Below are positions 4,568 through 46,008 of a DNA stretch of 64,000 bases, in pieces. This DNA is from Nitrospirota bacterium (GTDB lineage Bacteria > Nitrospirota > JACRHJ01): the NCBI GenBank assembly GCA_021784575.1, contig JAJYHX010000003.1, positions 248,001 to 312,000 of the forward strand, read 5' to 3'. Within the stretch, counting starts at the first letter, position 1. The number at the start of each line of letters is the position of its first letter. The translations under genes were made by a program, and so were the position numbers. The notes under the pieces are model-generated. The model was not told the DNA's origin and ran no database searches. It worked only from the letters and a program-made list of their open reading frames with translations.

Positions 4568-6202
4568 ATGAAGAAGAGTTTTCTGGTTCTGTTTGCCCTT
4601 ACATGCCTGTCGTTTCTTATTTACGCAAGGACGCTGAACTATCCCCTGGTCTTCGACGACCATCACGTAATTACGGGAAATACCTTCATCCAAAACCTTG
4701 CGGACGTGCCGCACCTGTTTGTCTCGGCGCACATGGAGTCGAACGAAAAAGCGTCGTCATACCGTCCGTTCCTTTACGCGACCTACGCCCTGAACTACGC
4801 CGTATCCGGGGTTAATCCCTGGTCTTACAGGCTGTTCGACATTTTCTCTCATGCGCTCTGCTCCTTCCTGGTATACCTCATTTCCATGATAATAATAAAG
4901 GAGCGCGGAGACAAAAATACCTGGCCTGCCGCCGCCATGGCGGTCATTTTCTGCGTGCATCCGGCTCAGACGGAATCCGTGATATACGTATCCGCAAGGA
5001 GCGCAGAGCTTGTCTGCACGCTCTTTCTGGCGTCGGTATATTTCTATCTCAAGGCCCGCACAGGACCGGGCAATGTCCTGCGGAAACGCGGTCTTGTTGC
5101 CGTTTCGCTCGTTGCGCTCGCGCTGGCGCTCCTTACAAAGGAGACCGCTGCGGCCCTTCTGCCGTTCTTTTTTGCCCTTGAATATTACTTCCGAAAGAAA
5201 AAGAGCGCCCGTATCTCCCGGGCATTCCCTGTCCTGGCAACCGTGATGACCGTCATATATACGGTCTACCGGTTCTATCTGATTTTCGGAAGCGGCAAGG
5301 GGGCCAAGTCGGATTATTCGGATTATGTTGGCCACTGGGCCGGATGGATAAGCCGCTTTCCAAGCTACATACGGCTTCTCGTCGTCCCGTTCAGCCAGAG
5401 CATAGAACATCCGGAAGCCGGTAAGTTAATAAATATCCACTTGTTCATCGGCATTGCCGTAATTGCCGTTTCGCTGTTTCTTATCTTTAGGCAGTTCAGG
5501 CGCGGGAATTATCTTGTGGCCGCTCTCCTGCTCCTGGCCGCCCTGTCGTTCCTGCCGGAGTTCTGCTATACGATATGGGACCTGGTGGTGGACTACCGCC
5601 TGTACCTGCCGCTTGCGGCGTTCTGTATTGCCGGCGCGGCTGCGCTTGCGCGGCTGTCCGGCCCGCGCGCCGTTATGGCGGCAAAATACGGAGCCGCCGT
5701 GGCGGCGGCTATGTTCCTTGTCCTTTCTTTTTCCAGGGCGGGGGCCTGGGCGTCGGATAAGAGTCTCTGGGGAGACGCGGAGGCAAAATACCCTATGCTT
5801 GCCAGGCCGCATAACGAGCTTGGGATATACTACCTGAAGCATGGCCGGTTCGACAAGGCGCGGATGGAATTTGAGACCGTGCTTTCGCTCAACCCTTCCT
5901 TTGTGAAGGCCTACGACAACCTTGGCGCGGATTATATATGCATGGGGAATTTTTCAAAGGCGCAGGAGGTGCTTTCGAGGGGCCTGGCGCTTGCTAATCT
6001 GTACTCCATGCGGTTCAACCTTGAAACGGCCTACATAAATGAGGGGAATAGCGGGGCGGCCATGCGGAATTTCGCTGCGACGCGGGACCGTTTCCCGGGC
6101 CAAGAAGTATTGCGGGACTTCACGAATACGGCCGTTAGATTGGGCAGGCCGGACCTGGCGCGGGCTTTTGCCGAGGCAGCCGCCGGGCAAAGAAATCCCT
6201 GA
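4568..6202 (+). CDS. Tmtc-like membrane protein with C-terminal TPR repeats
   Basis: A 544-aa polytopic protein: an N-terminal hydrophobic segment, a first extracytoplasmic loop with the FDDHHVI motif, about 9-10 transmembrane helices up to residue 400, then two or three tetratricopeptide repeats (PHNELGIYYLKHGRFDKA and following). This layout matches Tmtc/DUF1736-type and PMT-like GT-C glycosyltransferases, in which the acidic pair of the first loop binds the lipid-linked sugar. Transfer of a sugar to a protein in the periplasm is therefore a plausible but untested role. Its last 68 nt overlap antisense with the 3' end of dusB. Confidence 0.72.
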   Translation: MKKSFLVLFALTCLSFLIYARTLNYPLVFDDHHVITGNTFIQNLADVPHLFVSAHMESNEKASSYRPFLYATYALNYAVSGVNPWSYRLFDIFSHALCSFLVYLISMIIIKERGDKNTWPAAAMAVIFCVHPAQTESVIYVSARSAELVCTLFLASVYFYLKARTGPGNVLRKRGLVAVSLVALALALLTKETAAALLPFFFALEYYFRKKKSARISRAFPVLATVMTVIYTVYRFYLIFGSGKGAKSDYSDYVGHWAGWISRFPSYIRLLVVPFSQSIEHPEAGKLINIHLFIGIAVIAVSLFLIFRQFRRGNYLVAALLLLAALSFLPEFCYTIWDLVVDYRLYLPLAAFCIAGAAALARLSGPRAVMAAKYGAAVAAAMFLVLSFSRAGAWASDKSLWGDAEAKYPMLARPHNELGIYYLKHGRFDKARMEFETVLSLNPSFVKAYDNLGADYICMGNFSKAQEVLSRGLALANLYSMRFNLETAYINEGNSGAAMRNFAATRDRFPGQEVLRDFTNTAVRLGRPDLARAFAEAAAGQRNP

Positions 6203-42782: not shown

Positions 42783-42790
42783 AAAAGCAT
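42783..42790. repeat. target-site duplication, left copy
   Basis: AAAAGCAT directly before the left inverted repeat; identical to 45964-45971 directly after the right one. Eight bp fits IS1-family transposition. Confidence 0.9.
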
Positions 42791-42809
42791 GGTAGTGGGT
42801 CAGTTTGAA
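42791..42809 (+). repeat. left terminal inverted repeat
   Basis: GGTAGTGGGTCAGTTTGAA, exact complement of 45945-45963. Confidence 0.95.
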
Positions 42810-42820
42810 ATTTGCTCCCC

Positions 42821-42853
42821 TTGAAATGCTTGAGCGGTTATGCTATGCTCAAG
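42821..42853 (+). promoter_or_regulatory. promoter and operator-like dyad of the small basic protein gene
   Basis: TTGAAA (42821-42826), 17-bp spacer, TATGCT (42844-42849), about 7 nt before the ATG at 42856, so the message is probably leaderless. A dyad CTTGAGC (42829-42835)/GCTCAAG (42847-42853) covers the promoter. The transposase promoter has the same layout with CTTGA/TCAAG. Confidence 0.6.
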
Positions 42854-42855
42854 AC

Positions 42856-43104
42856 ATGGACAAGCCCAAGAAGAAAAGACCGAGAGACTTAAATCAACTC
42901 GCTAAGGCTATCGTTGACGAGGCCACAGGCGAAGCTCCGCAAGAAGAACCCTCCACAAAGAATCCCGCCGCCGTCGCTTTGGGCCGTTTAGGTGGCCTTA
43001 AGGGCGGCAAGGCCCGCGCTGAGAAGTTATCCGCAAAAAAACGGAAAGATATAGCTAAAAAGGCCGCTCAAGCAAGATGGTCAAATCCCCCCAAGTCAGA
43101 ATAA
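42856..43104 (+). CDS. small basic protein of the transposon
   Basis: An 82-aa Lys/Arg/Ala-rich protein: MDKPKKKRPRDLNQLAKAIV at the start and GRLGGLKGGKARAEKLSAKK with KAAQARW at the end. The GGLKGGKARA-type motif is widespread in short proteins of bacterial mobile regions; a nucleic-acid-binding role is inferred from charge only. The ATG at 42856 lies 7 nt after its -10 box with no ribosome site; the in-frame start at 42805 would be before the promoter and inside the inverted repeat. Confidence 0.75.
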   Translation: MDKPKKKRPRDLNQLAKAIVDEATGEAPQEEPSTKNPAAVALGRLGGLKGGKARAEKLSAKKRKDIAKKAAQARWSNPPKSE

Positions 43105-43207
43105 CCCATATAATCAATAGCTTACGCTTGAATATTTTTTTGAATATTTTTTGTTGATTTTTCTAAAAATCATGCTATCATTTGGAGCATCAAAAGGGAG
43201 GCTTCAA

Positions 43208-43807
43208 ATGAGCATATCAAAGTATCAGGCGAGCGATTTTTTAACTCCGTATCTAAAAGCATTTCAAGCGAGTGCAGACTATGCACAAAAGGAATTTTGG
43301 GGTAAGGGTCTACGAAAATATCGGCCAATAATGCGGGGCCGCACACAGGCAAGCCTCCTATTTGATTTGATGATTCAGGGTTTTTATAATGAGTTTGATG
43401 GAAAAAAAGGTGCATACATCCACGAAAACAAAGGTATCGTTTCCCTTGACTTTGACAGTGGCTTATCGGTTCGGTGCAAGAAAGTAAATAAGAAAAATTT
43501 ACCGAGCTATATCCCGACTACTCAGTCGCTTGCCTACTTTGGCCAACTTGAAATTCCAGGGCTTCCCACATCTGAAAGAATTATTTTCGGATACCGCCTG
43601 AATAAAGCCAAGACAGGATTTGAGATTTTGAACTTTGTCTATTTAAATGGCAAACAAGTAATATGGGAATTGCCACTATCCACCGCCACCAAAGAGAATG
43701 TAGTTGATATACCGGCTAATCAGGAGATGATAGAGCAAGAACTAATAACCACTGATGAGCGGATAGCTGTAGTGGCCGAAATAGACCATGAACAAACAAC
43801 CGAATAA
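43208..43807 (+). CDS. unknown passenger protein paired with XRE-ImmA gene
   Basis: A 199-aa soluble protein with no recognised family. It starts MSISKYQASDFLTPYLKAFQ, has a basic segment (GKGLRKYRPIMRGRTQASLLFD), a beta-rich middle (KGIVSLDFDSGLSVRCKKVNK, IIFGYRLNKAKTGFEILNFV) and an acidic C-terminus (ELITTDERIAVVAEIDHEQTTE). GGGAGG is 6 nt before ATG 43208. It overlaps the next gene by 20 nt, a tight operon, and is clearly more AT-rich than the chromosome. Position and overlap make it the likely partner of the ImmA protein (for example toxin, antitoxin or protease target). Confidence 0.72.
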   Translation: MSISKYQASDFLTPYLKAFQASADYAQKEFWGKGLRKYRPIMRGRTQASLLFDLMIQGFYNEFDGKKGAYIHENKGIVSLDFDSGLSVRCKKVNKKNLPSYIPTTQSLAYFGQLEIPGLPTSERIIFGYRLNKAKTGFEILNFVYLNGKQVIWELPLSTATKENVVDIPANQEMIEQELITTDERIAVVAEIDHEQTTE

Positions 43808-44864
43808 AGATATTATACGATTAGCAAGAGAGTCAAGGGGCTTCACCCAAAAAGACCTTGCAGAGGCTATTCCCACGCCTCAAGGCAATATATCAAAGTG
43901 GGAAAACGGGATGCTCGGATTATCTGAGGACACGCTAAAAAGAATATCTCAGATTCTTAAGTATCCTGAACACTTTTTTTATTTTGACGACCAAATTTAT
44001 GGGCCGGGCATAAGCGGTCTTGGAATTTTTTTTCATAGAAAGAGGCAAAGCGTTTCCAATAAAACGCTTGACGAGATTCATGCTCAAATCAATGTGAGAG
44101 CAATACATCTGAGAAGGCTATTGAAGTCCATACGGCTGAAAAATAATCTATTCAGGTTTTATGACCTGGAAGATTTTAAAGATAAGCCGGAGGATGTGGC
44201 AAAAGCCATCCGTCATCAGTGGGGCCTTCCCAGGGGGCCGGTTGCTAATTTAACGAAGTCAATTGAAAACGCTGGAGGCATTGTAATTGAATTTGATTTT
44301 GGCACGAGGGCGATAGATGCTATCAGCCAATGGATGCCGGATTTGCCGCCGCTTTTCTTTGTAAATAAAAGCTCACCCGGAGATCGGTTAAGGTTTAGCC
44401 TTGCCCATGAGTTACTCCATGTGCTTTGCCATAACCATAAAACATATGACCCAACGAAAGAAGATGAGGCGGATAAATTTGCGGCAGAGTTTCTAATGCC
44501 AAAAGCGGAAATATCTTCTTCTTTGTATGCTCTAAACCTGGCAAAACTTGCGGCCTTGAAAGAGAACTGGAAAACAGCAATGGCTGCTATTTTACATCGT
44601 GCAACCGATTTAGAGAAAATAAAGAAAAGCTATGCTCAGTATCTTTGGATGCAAATGGGTAAATCAGGTTATCGTTTACATGAGCCGATTGAGATACCAA
44701 GAGAAGAACCTTCTTTGTTAAGCAGGATAATAGAGACATACTGTAAAAACTATAATTATTCAATTGAGGAACTTAGCAATCTCTTAGGTCTTTTTGAACA
44801 AGAAACAAAAGACCTTTATTTTCCTCAAAAGAATCGACCTGCTTATTTGTCGGTAGTGAAATAA
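43788..44864 (+). CDS. XRE-HTH / ImmA-IrrE metallopeptidase regulator
   Basis: A 358-aa two-domain protein. Residues about 5-70 are an XRE helix-turn-helix (DIIRLARESRGFTQKDLAEA, TPQGNISKWENG). Residues about 150-260 are an ImmA/IrrE (M78) zinc peptidase with the HExxH motif in FSLAHELLHVLCH and the downstream Glu in EDEADKFAAEFLMP. Such fusions act as stress or prophage regulators that cleave a repressor, or as part of toxin-antitoxin/defence pairs. The 199-aa partner overlaps its 5' end. Base composition matches its partner, not the chromosome. Confidence 0.9.
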   Translation: MNKQPNKDIIRLARESRGFTQKDLAEAIPTPQGNISKWENGMLGLSEDTLKRISQILKYPEHFFYFDDQIYGPGISGLGIFFHRKRQSVSNKTLDEIHAQINVRAIHLRRLLKSIRLKNNLFRFYDLEDFKDKPEDVAKAIRHQWGLPRGPVANLTKSIENAGGIVIEFDFGTRAIDAISQWMPDLPPLFFVNKSSPGDRLRFSLAHELLHVLCHNHKTYDPTKEDEADKFAAEFLMPKAEISSSLYALNLAKLAALKENWKTAMAAILHRATDLEKIKKSYAQYLWMQMGKSGYRLHEPIEIPREEPSLLSRIIETYCKNYNYSIEELSNLLGLFEQETKDLYFPQKNRPAYLSVVK

Positions 44865-44866
44865 AA

Positions 44867-44914
44867 ATAAAGGGTGAATGCGGTAGCGTGGCAGCTTATA
44901 CATTCACCCTTTAT
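44867..44914 (+). terminator. 14-bp stem-loop after the ImmA gene
   Basis: ATAAAGGGTGAATG (44867-44880) pairs with CATTCACCCTTTAT (44901-44914), 20-nt loop; no T-run follows. It ends 5 nt before the tRNA-like gene. Confidence 0.6.
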
Positions 44915-44919
44915 GATTG

Positions 44920-44996
44920 GCCCCCGTAACTCAGTCGGATAGAGTGGACGACTACTAATCGTACTGACGCCAGTTCAAGTCTGGCCGGGGGCTCCA
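44920..44996 (+). tRNA. tRNA-like gene with ACT anticodon, inside the transposon
   Basis: A 77-nt cloverleaf with encoded CCA: acceptor GCCCCCG/CGGGGGC (7 of 7), D stem ACTC/GAGT, anticodon loop CTACTAA (anticodon ACT, codon AGU), five-nt variable loop, T stem GCCAG/CTGGC with loop TTCAAGT. The anticodon stem has a G27-A43 mismatch and the discriminator base is T. Serine tRNAs in bacteria have a long variable arm, which this lacks. The body and loop look like tRNA-Arg(ACG) with G36 changed to T. It could be a decayed tRNA or a working tRNA of odd identity. Confidence 0.75.
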
Positions 44997-45063
44997 ATTT
45001 GTTTTTAAGATAGCATTTTATTTTTTTAAAGTCAAAAAAAATGATTCAATATGACTTTTATGC

Positions 45064-45092
45064 TTGACAGGTCAAGAACAATGTGCTATATT
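45064..45092 (+). promoter_or_regulatory. consensus promoter of the transposase gene
   Basis: TTGACA (45064-45069), 17-bp spacer, TATATT (45087-45092). The ATG at 45100 is 7 nt after the -10 box, so the mRNA is probably leaderless. CTTGA-CAGG-TCAAG (45063-45076) overlaps the -35. Confidence 0.75.
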
Positions 45093-45099
45093 GAAAACC

Positions 45100-45954
45100 A
45101 TGAACAAGTTATCTACAGAAAAGAGGGCACAAGTAATAGGATGCTTAGTGGAAGGCATGAGCATCCGTGCTACTGTGCGCGTTACGGGCGTTGCCAAGAA
45201 TACGATTACAAAGCTCCTGCTTGACCTGAGCCGGGCCTGCTATGACTATCAAGACAAGACCATGCGCGGCCTTAACTGCCATCGGTTTGAATGTGATGAA
45301 ATCTGGTCTTTCTGCTATGCCAAGAGTAAGAACGTCCCGGACGAGTTTAAGGGCATATTCGGATATGGCGATGTTTGGACGTGGACGGCTATATGCTCTG
45401 ATTCAAAGCTCGTTCCGAGTTGGCTTGTGGCAAACCGGACACCAGAGGCCGCTAACGCTTTCATGGAGGATTTAGCCTCACGCCTGAATCATCGGATTCA
45501 GCTTACTACGGACGGCTATAGGGCTTATGCTCAGGCTGTGGAAGGGGCTTTCGGCTGTGATGTCGATTATGCCATGCTGGTTAAAATGTATGGCAATGAC
45601 GGGCCACCGAGTAAGAGTAACCCGGAAAGTAAATATAGTCCAAGTAGCTTCTCCGGCGCAAAGAAGCAGATTATCTCAGGAAGGCCGGACAAGCGGAAGG
45701 TTTCTACCTCAATAGCAGAGCGTAATAACCTGACCATGCGCATGAGCATGAGGCGGTTTACGAGGCTGACCAATGGCTTTTCAAAGAAGATAGAAAACCT
45801 TGAGGCGGCTGTAGCTCTGCATTTCATGTATTACAACTTTGGCAGGATTCACAAGACGCTCAGGGTAACTCCGGCAATGGAGGCGGGAATATCTGACCAC
45901 GTTTGGAGCTTGGAGGAAATAGCGGGCCTGCTTGACGATAAGAATTCAAACTGA
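45100..45954 (+). CDS. IS1-family transposase (single ORF)
   Basis: A 284-aa transposase with an N-terminal helix-turn-helix (KRAQVIGCLVEGMSIRATVRVTGVAKNTITKLLLD) and an IS1-type DDE catalytic domain: FECDEIWSFCYAKSK (first Asp), QLTTDGYRAYAQAV (second Asp) and SIAERNNLTMRMSMRRFTRLTNGFSKK (Glu) followed by FMYYNFGRIHKTLRVTPAMEAG. It is uninterrupted and so needs no frameshift, unlike IS1 itself; this fits the ISMhu11-type branch. Its TGA lies inside the right inverted repeat. Confidence 0.93.
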   Translation: MNKLSTEKRAQVIGCLVEGMSIRATVRVTGVAKNTITKLLLDLSRACYDYQDKTMRGLNCHRFECDEIWSFCYAKSKNVPDEFKGIFGYGDVWTWTAICSDSKLVPSWLVANRTPEAANAFMEDLASRLNHRIQLTTDGYRAYAQAVEGAFGCDVDYAMLVKMYGNDGPPSKSNPESKYSPSSFSGAKKQIISGRPDKRKVSTSIAERNNLTMRMSMRRFTRLTNGFSKKIENLEAAVALHFMYYNFGRIHKTLRVTPAMEAGISDHVWSLEEIAGLLDDKNSN

Positions 45955-45963
45955 CCCACTACC
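45945..45963 (-). repeat. right terminal inverted repeat
   Basis: TTCAAACTGACCCACTACC, exact complement of the left end. Confidence 0.95.
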
Positions 45964-45971
45964 AAAAGCAT
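45964..45971. repeat. target-site duplication, right copy
   Basis: AAAAGCAT, identical to 42783-42790. Confidence 0.9.
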
Positions 45972-45978
45972 GGTATTC

Positions 45979-46008
45979 TTGACATCGAATGCCCTCTGGT
46001 GATATGAT
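45979..46008 (+). promoter_or_regulatory. sigma-70 promoter of ileS
   Basis: TTGACA (45979-45984), 18-bp spacer, TATGAT (46003-46008). The transposon ends 15 bp upstream of the -35 box, so the core promoter is intact but anything further upstream has been displaced by 3.2 kb. Confidence 0.72.

Follow-up and report, generated by a model that had tools for sequence, protein, structure and literature searches.

A RosmerTA-like gene pair, a putative toxin-antitoxin module with an unrecognised toxin candidate, as cargo of an IS1-type transposon in Nitrospirota

Introduction

Islands, prophages and satellites are known to concentrate defence genes; less clear, to our knowledge, is the route by which individual two-gene modules hop between genomes. 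The window analysed here, a stretch of 64,000 nucleotides from a 2.1-Mb Nitrospirota genome assembly, contains two overlapping genes, the first encoding a 199-aa protein and the second a protein with XRE and ImmA-type peptidase domains. What is this pair, and how did it come to lie at this site?

Results

The gene pair and its XRE-ImmA protein

The pair is organised as follows.

43154..43181, + strand: promoter-like site ahead of the pair, TTGATT-16-TATCAT (consensus scan only)
43208..43807, + strand: 199-aa protein, putative toxin (unrecognised RmrT-type partner); no family match, RmrA directly 3' at 34/34 relatives, model pLDDT 69.5
43788..44864, + strand: 358-aa XRE-ImmA protein, RmrA, putative antitoxin and repressor; PADLOC RmrA E 8.4e-59, HTH_3, Peptidase_M78, HELLH
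44867..44914, + strand: 14-bp perfect hairpin 3' of the pair, possible terminator (inverted repeat)

The two reading frames overlap by exactly 20 nt, and the ATG of the first is preceded by the ribosome-site-like AAAAGGGAGG; across 500 shuffles of the pair stretch, the longest stop-free frame was 149 codons. Both genes are AT-rich, with a GC content of 0.41 (199-aa gene) and 0.40 (XRE-ImmA gene) as compared to 0.55 in the host gene ileS. The second protein combines HTH_3 (E 2e-11) with Peptidase_M78 (E 8e-13), the zinc-peptidase motif HELLH being located at residue 207. The overlap, the composition and the XRE and HExxH peptidase domains had all been part of the original prediction, in full agreement with these data.

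The XRE-ImmA protein is matched by 14 PADLOC RmrA models (best E 8.4e-59) and by phrog_2439 (E 9e-79). Judged by sequence, it is RmrA, the antitoxin of the known defence toxin-antitoxin RosmerTA. RosmerTA of phage Kita has been shown to be a toxin-antitoxin that protects against phages, and in such systems different toxins pair with the protease-bearing antitoxin RmrA, which neutralises them (PMC10440598). Membership is characterised by an XRE and ImmA/M78 protein matching RmrA, by a neighbouring partner gene that shares the operon and is conserved across genomes, and by a partner that is a known RmrT. The first two are found here (14 models with HELLH present; 34/34 loci), but not the third, as neither the window 199-aa protein nor its relative L089 has a PADLOC match at E<=1, although the same library does recognise RmrT in loci L057 and L127. 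The HigB-like first gene and three-gene operon of PD-Lambda-2, a tested toxin-antitoxin-like abortive-infection defence system (PMC9519451), were not found either; the 199-aa protein has no HigB match.

The 199-aa protein family

The first protein was originally described as lacking a recognised family, and our searches bear this out: no match better than E 0.1 was detected in Pfam or NCBIfam, none at E<=1 in PADLOC or PHROGs, and none with its profile among PDB sequences, and the family has no profile similarity to RmrT of L057 and L127. Single-protein pattern scans of genome_contigs and viral_contigs with the window protein gave no matches, and a first family alignment was too divergent for scanning; a tighter alignment retrieved relatives. 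Using tblastn, distant relatives were identified on plasmids of Polaromonas and Roseicitreum, both with an XRE-ImmA gene behind the homologue, and an iterated search added members from Rhizobium, an Acinetobacter plasmid and phage, Nitrospirota, Rhodobacteraceae, Piscinibacter and IMG/VR. The family hence spans two phyla, Nitrospirota and Pseudomonadota, and occurs on plasmids and on phage or viral contigs. Acinetobacter phage vB_AbaM_ABMM1 carries a relative of the pair (L009:3001-4706), and the same stretch is present in the A. baumannii plasmid record L007.

Homologues of the first gene occurring mostly without the ImmA gene would have spoken against a joint module. Instead, RmrA lies directly 3' of the 199-aa gene, on the same strand, in 34/34 loci examined; the spacing of the two genes ranges from about -169 to +21 nt. 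In this set the first gene is frame-broken in the Devosia locus, and a few loci are represented twice, in separate collections. Because of this obligate pairing, the 199-aa protein is, as far as its genomic context tells, most likely an unrecognised RmrT-type toxin. At about 20% identity to most relatives, the window copy is divergent, and it is devoid of some residues conserved in the others, so that it could have drifted.

AlphaFold2 models were calculated from alignments of 27 rows for the window protein (pLDDT 69.5, pTM 0.64) and 26 rows for the Piscinibacter relative (pLDDT 75.9, pTM 0.71). The predicted fold comprises a long helix, a helix, three strands, a helix, three strands and a disordered tail. 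Foldseek gave no match under E 0.001 for the two models against PDB or for one of them against BFVD. For the better, Piscinibacter model, two restriction enzymes, BglI and PvuII, head the list of structural matches (E 0.025 to 0.44, TM about 0.3). The predicted fold only weakly resembles restriction-endonuclease cores: the element order fits the alpha-beta-beta-beta-alpha-beta arrangement of the PD-(D/E)XK core, the best match, BglI, being weak (E 0.025, TM about 0.3). The catalytic D and (D/E)xK of that core were not found; the third strand instead holds the invariant R89-x-K91-K92, and positions 76 and 126, acidic in relatives, are non-acidic in the window protein. Nine residues are invariant in the family (R45, A48, R89, K91, K92, T104, P120, Y129 and W153), and its alignment displays no recognisable catalytic site. 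With catalytic residues that do not fit PD-(D/E)XK, the nuclease-like leads (BglI, PvuII, EcoRV, tRNA-splicing endonuclease) are too weak to assign an activity, as are the nucleotidyltransferase-like leads. To see in the protein a basic toxin that faces nucleic acid would be no more than a guess. A membrane-pore toxin such as Kita RmrT is disfavoured, since the highest 19-residue mean hydropathy is only 0.66.

The transposon and its insertion site

The features surrounding the pair are listed below.

42783..42790, no strand: left target-duplication copy AAAAGCAT, 8 bp; single copy in congeners
42791..42809, + strand: left terminal inverted repeat (TIR) GGTAGTGGGTCAGTTTGAA, 19 bp, perfect; same ends in 46 elements
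42856..43104, + strand: 82-aa basic protein (KGGKARA...RW type), core gene of the element family; profile search, 36/37 elements; no Pfam/NCBIfam match
44920..44996, + strand: tRNA gene, anticodon ACT, encoded CCA; ARAGORN, Rfam tRNA 56.9 bits
45064..45092, + strand: transposase promoter-like site TTGACA-17-TATATT, 11/12 consensus positions
45100..45954, + strand: IS1-family transposase, 284 aa from ATG; NCBIfam transpos_IS1 E 2e-15; relatives 44-67% identical
45945..45963, - strand: right TIR, overlapping the transposase 3' end; 19 bp, perfect
45964..45971, no strand: right target-duplication copy AAAAGCAT, exact repeat of the left copy

In line with the proposal that the pair travels in a transposon, it lies within an element of 3,173 bp (42791-45963). 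This element has perfectly matching inverted ends of 19 bp, is flanked by an exact target duplication of 8 bp and encodes an IS1-family transposase; the insertion site is uninterrupted in three congeners (G003, G022, G031). The element therefore entered the window lineage between a universal-stress-protein gene and ileS, and TIRs, target duplication and empty site mark the pair as a passenger of the transposon, the contrary reading being rejected. The small conserved gene and the tRNA, which the element also holds, had gone unnoticed in the original prediction, and the similar cargo of the whole element family lay beyond its view. IS1-type transposase, TIRs, an 8-9-bp duplication and passenger genes inside, as characteristic of IS1-family transporter IS (tIS), are all present; the transposase represents a divergent IS1-family member, as it scores 57 bits against the curated NCBIfam transpos_IS1 cut-off of 100 bits. 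Its -10 box ends 7 nt before the ATG (45087-45100), and the mRNA may consequently be leaderless. A strong promoter-like site of ileS (45979-46008, TTGACA-18-TATGAT), 8 bp downstream of the insertion, is left intact.

The tRNA gene closes the cargo. By our own reading of its sequence, the anticodon ACT is placed in a tRNA-Arg-like body (loop CUACUAA, A20, C35, U36). Long-variable-arm tRNAs with Thr or Ala anticodons are found in two relatives (L054, L078), and a third has two tRNAs.

L052:5689-5794 and 5808-5894: element tRNA genes
L054:5756-5847: element tRNA gene
L078, minus strand, element positions 999-1095: element tRNA gene

Body and anticodon seem to disagree in several of these sequences, which may be linked to allo-tRNAs, a suggestive connection based on four or five elements.

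Element family and interchangeable cargo

Transposase relatives were searched for in 396 genomes of the phylum and found in 50, mostly as one copy each, and elements were delimited in the DNA around most of these relatives and in four plasmids. The 46 relatives delimited share ends of the type GGTA(G/C)TG... and measure 1.95-4.2 kb; 41 have an exact 8-9-bp target duplication. No bare, cargo-free element occurs among them, sampled by transposase and not by size; bare copies are possible outside this sample. Profile searches place the small basic protein in 36/37 of the first-delimited elements, encoded on the same strand as the transposase but at the other end of the element, and next to the transposase in alphaproteobacterial plasmid loci. 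Against plasmids, tblastn with the 82-aa protein returned no matches although the profile finds it there beside the transposase, which may be an effect of the low-complexity filter. The protein has no Pfam or NCBIfam match and is characterised by the motif GRLGGLKGGKARAEKLSxKKRxEIAxKAAxARW. It is labelled 'histone H1' on a Mesorhizobium plasmid (L126), and its motif also opens many P63C cargo proteins.

Beyond transposase and small gene, the element content is interchangeable cargo. RosmerTA with a PADLOC-recognised RmrT is present in two sister elements of the same architecture (L127, E 1e-97; L057, E 5e-14), and the 199-aa RosmerTA-like pair in the window element, L076 and L079, as well as beside the transposase in L080, where the ends are not set. 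PD-Lambda-2 is carried by L050, with homologues of its XRE-peptidase in L069, L142, L144 and L126. Further cargo includes a Gp49-type toxin with XRE (HigBA-type; L056, L081), Panacea (L052; homologue in L058), HicA of the HicAB type (L059), Fic (L067), PDC-M63 (L047), HEC-06 (L082) and proteases (L051, L070, L072); many elements have no recognisable toxin-antitoxin cargo. Transposases that are 90-95% identical accompany unrelated cargo in L081/L142, L054/L059, L055/L056 and L076/L077, with cargo classes assigned by us from the results above. Among phylum genomes with a close RmrA, five of seven have it inside or beside a window-type element. As dozens of relatives carry different, interchangeable toxin-antitoxin or anti-phage modules, the window-type element appears to be a shuttle of bacterial defences.

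The commonest cargo are P63C-domain proteins of 340-400 aa (L049, L053, L055, L058, L061, L063, L064, L066, L068, L071, L075, L147). Short cargo proteins of about 110-195 aa (L044, L045, L052, L054, L060, L077, L078) have a coiled-coil-like part followed by a possible winged helix and belong to no clear family; in L052, L054 and L078 such a protein and tRNA share the same element. The window genome contains a second, divergent element (G000:C6; L082:3328-6894), the transposases being 51-52% identical, and its GmrSD-type protein matches PADLOC HEC-06 (E 2e-173).

Independent capture of the pair

The window RmrA is sister to that of L013 (50% identity), a chromosomal pair without a transposase nearby, rather than to the element-borne copies in L085, L086 and L010. 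Grouping of the four element-borne RmrA proteins is rejected (p-AU 2.6e-46), and with it a single ancestral capture of the pair by elements; gene orientation relative to the transposase also differs among pair-carrying elements. Because of long branches the exact RmrA tree is unsure; identity values agree with it. Judged by the RmrA phylogeny, the RosmerTA-like pair has been captured by elements at least twice.

Discussion

Based on these analyses, the gene pair is probably a RosmerTA-like toxin-antitoxin (abortive-infection) module carried as cargo of an IS1-type transposon, and constitutes a new variant of RosmerTA-like systems. This supports the original prediction of a stability or defence module and refines it, in that the XRE-ImmA half is the known RmrA and the partner alone is unrecognised. 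We propose the following mechanism. The 199-aa protein would act as a soluble toxin, and RmrA as antitoxin, repressing the operon through its XRE domain and neutralising the toxin. The zinc-peptidase half of RmrA would sense infection or perform the switch: a phage upsetting RmrA would free the toxin, and growth would cease ahead of phage spread. The module would be moved between sites, with 8-bp duplications, by the transposase and possibly also the small protein. The presence of PD-Lambda-2-type XRE-peptidase modules in five sister elements argues in favour of a toxin-antitoxin module.

Alternatively, the roles may be swapped, the XRE-ImmA protein being toxic alone and the 199-aa protein restraining it, still within abortive infection. 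Such an arrangement has precedent in PD-Lambda-2, where the XRE-peptidase component B is toxic alone and component A rescues (PMC9519451), and is compatible with a 199-aa family that has invariant residues but no recognisable catalytic site. However, the window XRE-ImmA protein is closest to RmrA rather than to PD-Lambda-2_B, and in RosmerTA it is RmrA that serves as antitoxin (PMC10440598), making this arrangement improbable. A slightly smaller chance is given to an addiction module that serves the element only, without phage defence, where loss of the element leaves a stable toxin unopposed. Classical toxin-antitoxin cargo (HigBA, HicA, Panacea, Fic) in many sister elements and passenger pairs of Tn3-family transposons (PMC7157771) would suit such a role, yet other sister elements carry known or proposed phage defence (RosmerTA, PD-Lambda-2, HEC-06, PDC-M63), and many others have no recognisable toxin-antitoxin. 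That the XRE-ImmA protein is an ImmR/ImmA-like transposon regulator with the 199-aa protein as co-regulator, by analogy to ImmA of ICEBs1, which cleaves the repressor ImmR and allows integrase expression (described in PMC10440598), is very unlikely, as XRE and ImmA form a single protein here, the pair counts among many swappable cargoes and is absent from most same-transposase elements, and it also occurs without transposase (L004-L007, L013, L087-L110).

We regard it as an even chance that the window element belongs to an undescribed cross-phylum IS1-type lineage with a core of transposase and KGGKARA-type small protein. Elements of this lineage would never be bare but would ferry exchangeable toxin-antitoxin and anti-phage modules, some copies with tRNAs mismatched in body and anticodon; the same proposal sees in the small protein a new factor for transposition or cargo capture, and counts the 199-aa family as a new RmrT-type toxin. 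No IS1-type lineage that combines a second conserved gene with routine exchange of toxin-antitoxin or defence cargo was found described in the literature; ISfinder and the supplements of PMC10440598 (NetFlax clusters) lie outside this comparison. A 2-4-kb transposon lineage of Nitrospirota and Alphaproteobacteria carries one or a few defence or toxin-antitoxin modules, swapped while the transposase stays nearly unchanged, and its cargo therefore represents a ready list of candidate defence systems. By association, the known cargo (RosmerTA, PD-Lambda-2, HEC-06) points to the unknown, the 199-aa family included.

Compared to known systems, the pair shares with RosmerTA an XRE-ImmA protein that aligns with RmrA models end to end, a toxin-first operon of overlapping genes and an occurrence in phages, plasmids and chromosomes. 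It differs in its partner, which matches no RmrT model, has no profile similarity to two recognised RmrT proteins and is predicted to be soluble, in contrast to the membrane-acting RmrT of Kita. PD-Lambda-2, carried by sister elements (L050, L069, L142, L144, L126), likewise fuses XRE to an ImmA-type peptidase and combines this protein, within one operon, with a small partner unrelated to it, but comprises three genes with a HigB-like first component, whereas the window pair has two genes, no HigB and an XRE-ImmA protein nearer to RmrA. Transposons with a toxin-antitoxin passenger have precedents in the Tn3 family (PMC7157771) and in transporter IS (PMC9330008). The element resembles transporter IS and the IS1 family in its IS1-type transposase, short TIRs starting with GGT, 8-9-bp duplications and passengers within the TIRs; it differs in that nearly every copy contains a second, small conserved gene and no bare copy was seen, and by a cargo that is strongly toxin-antitoxin or defence and swapped between near-identical transposases. 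As in Tn3-family transposons, toxin-antitoxin pairs are passengers of a unit transposon, but the transposase is of another family, and the window-type element is much smaller, with no resolvase seen.
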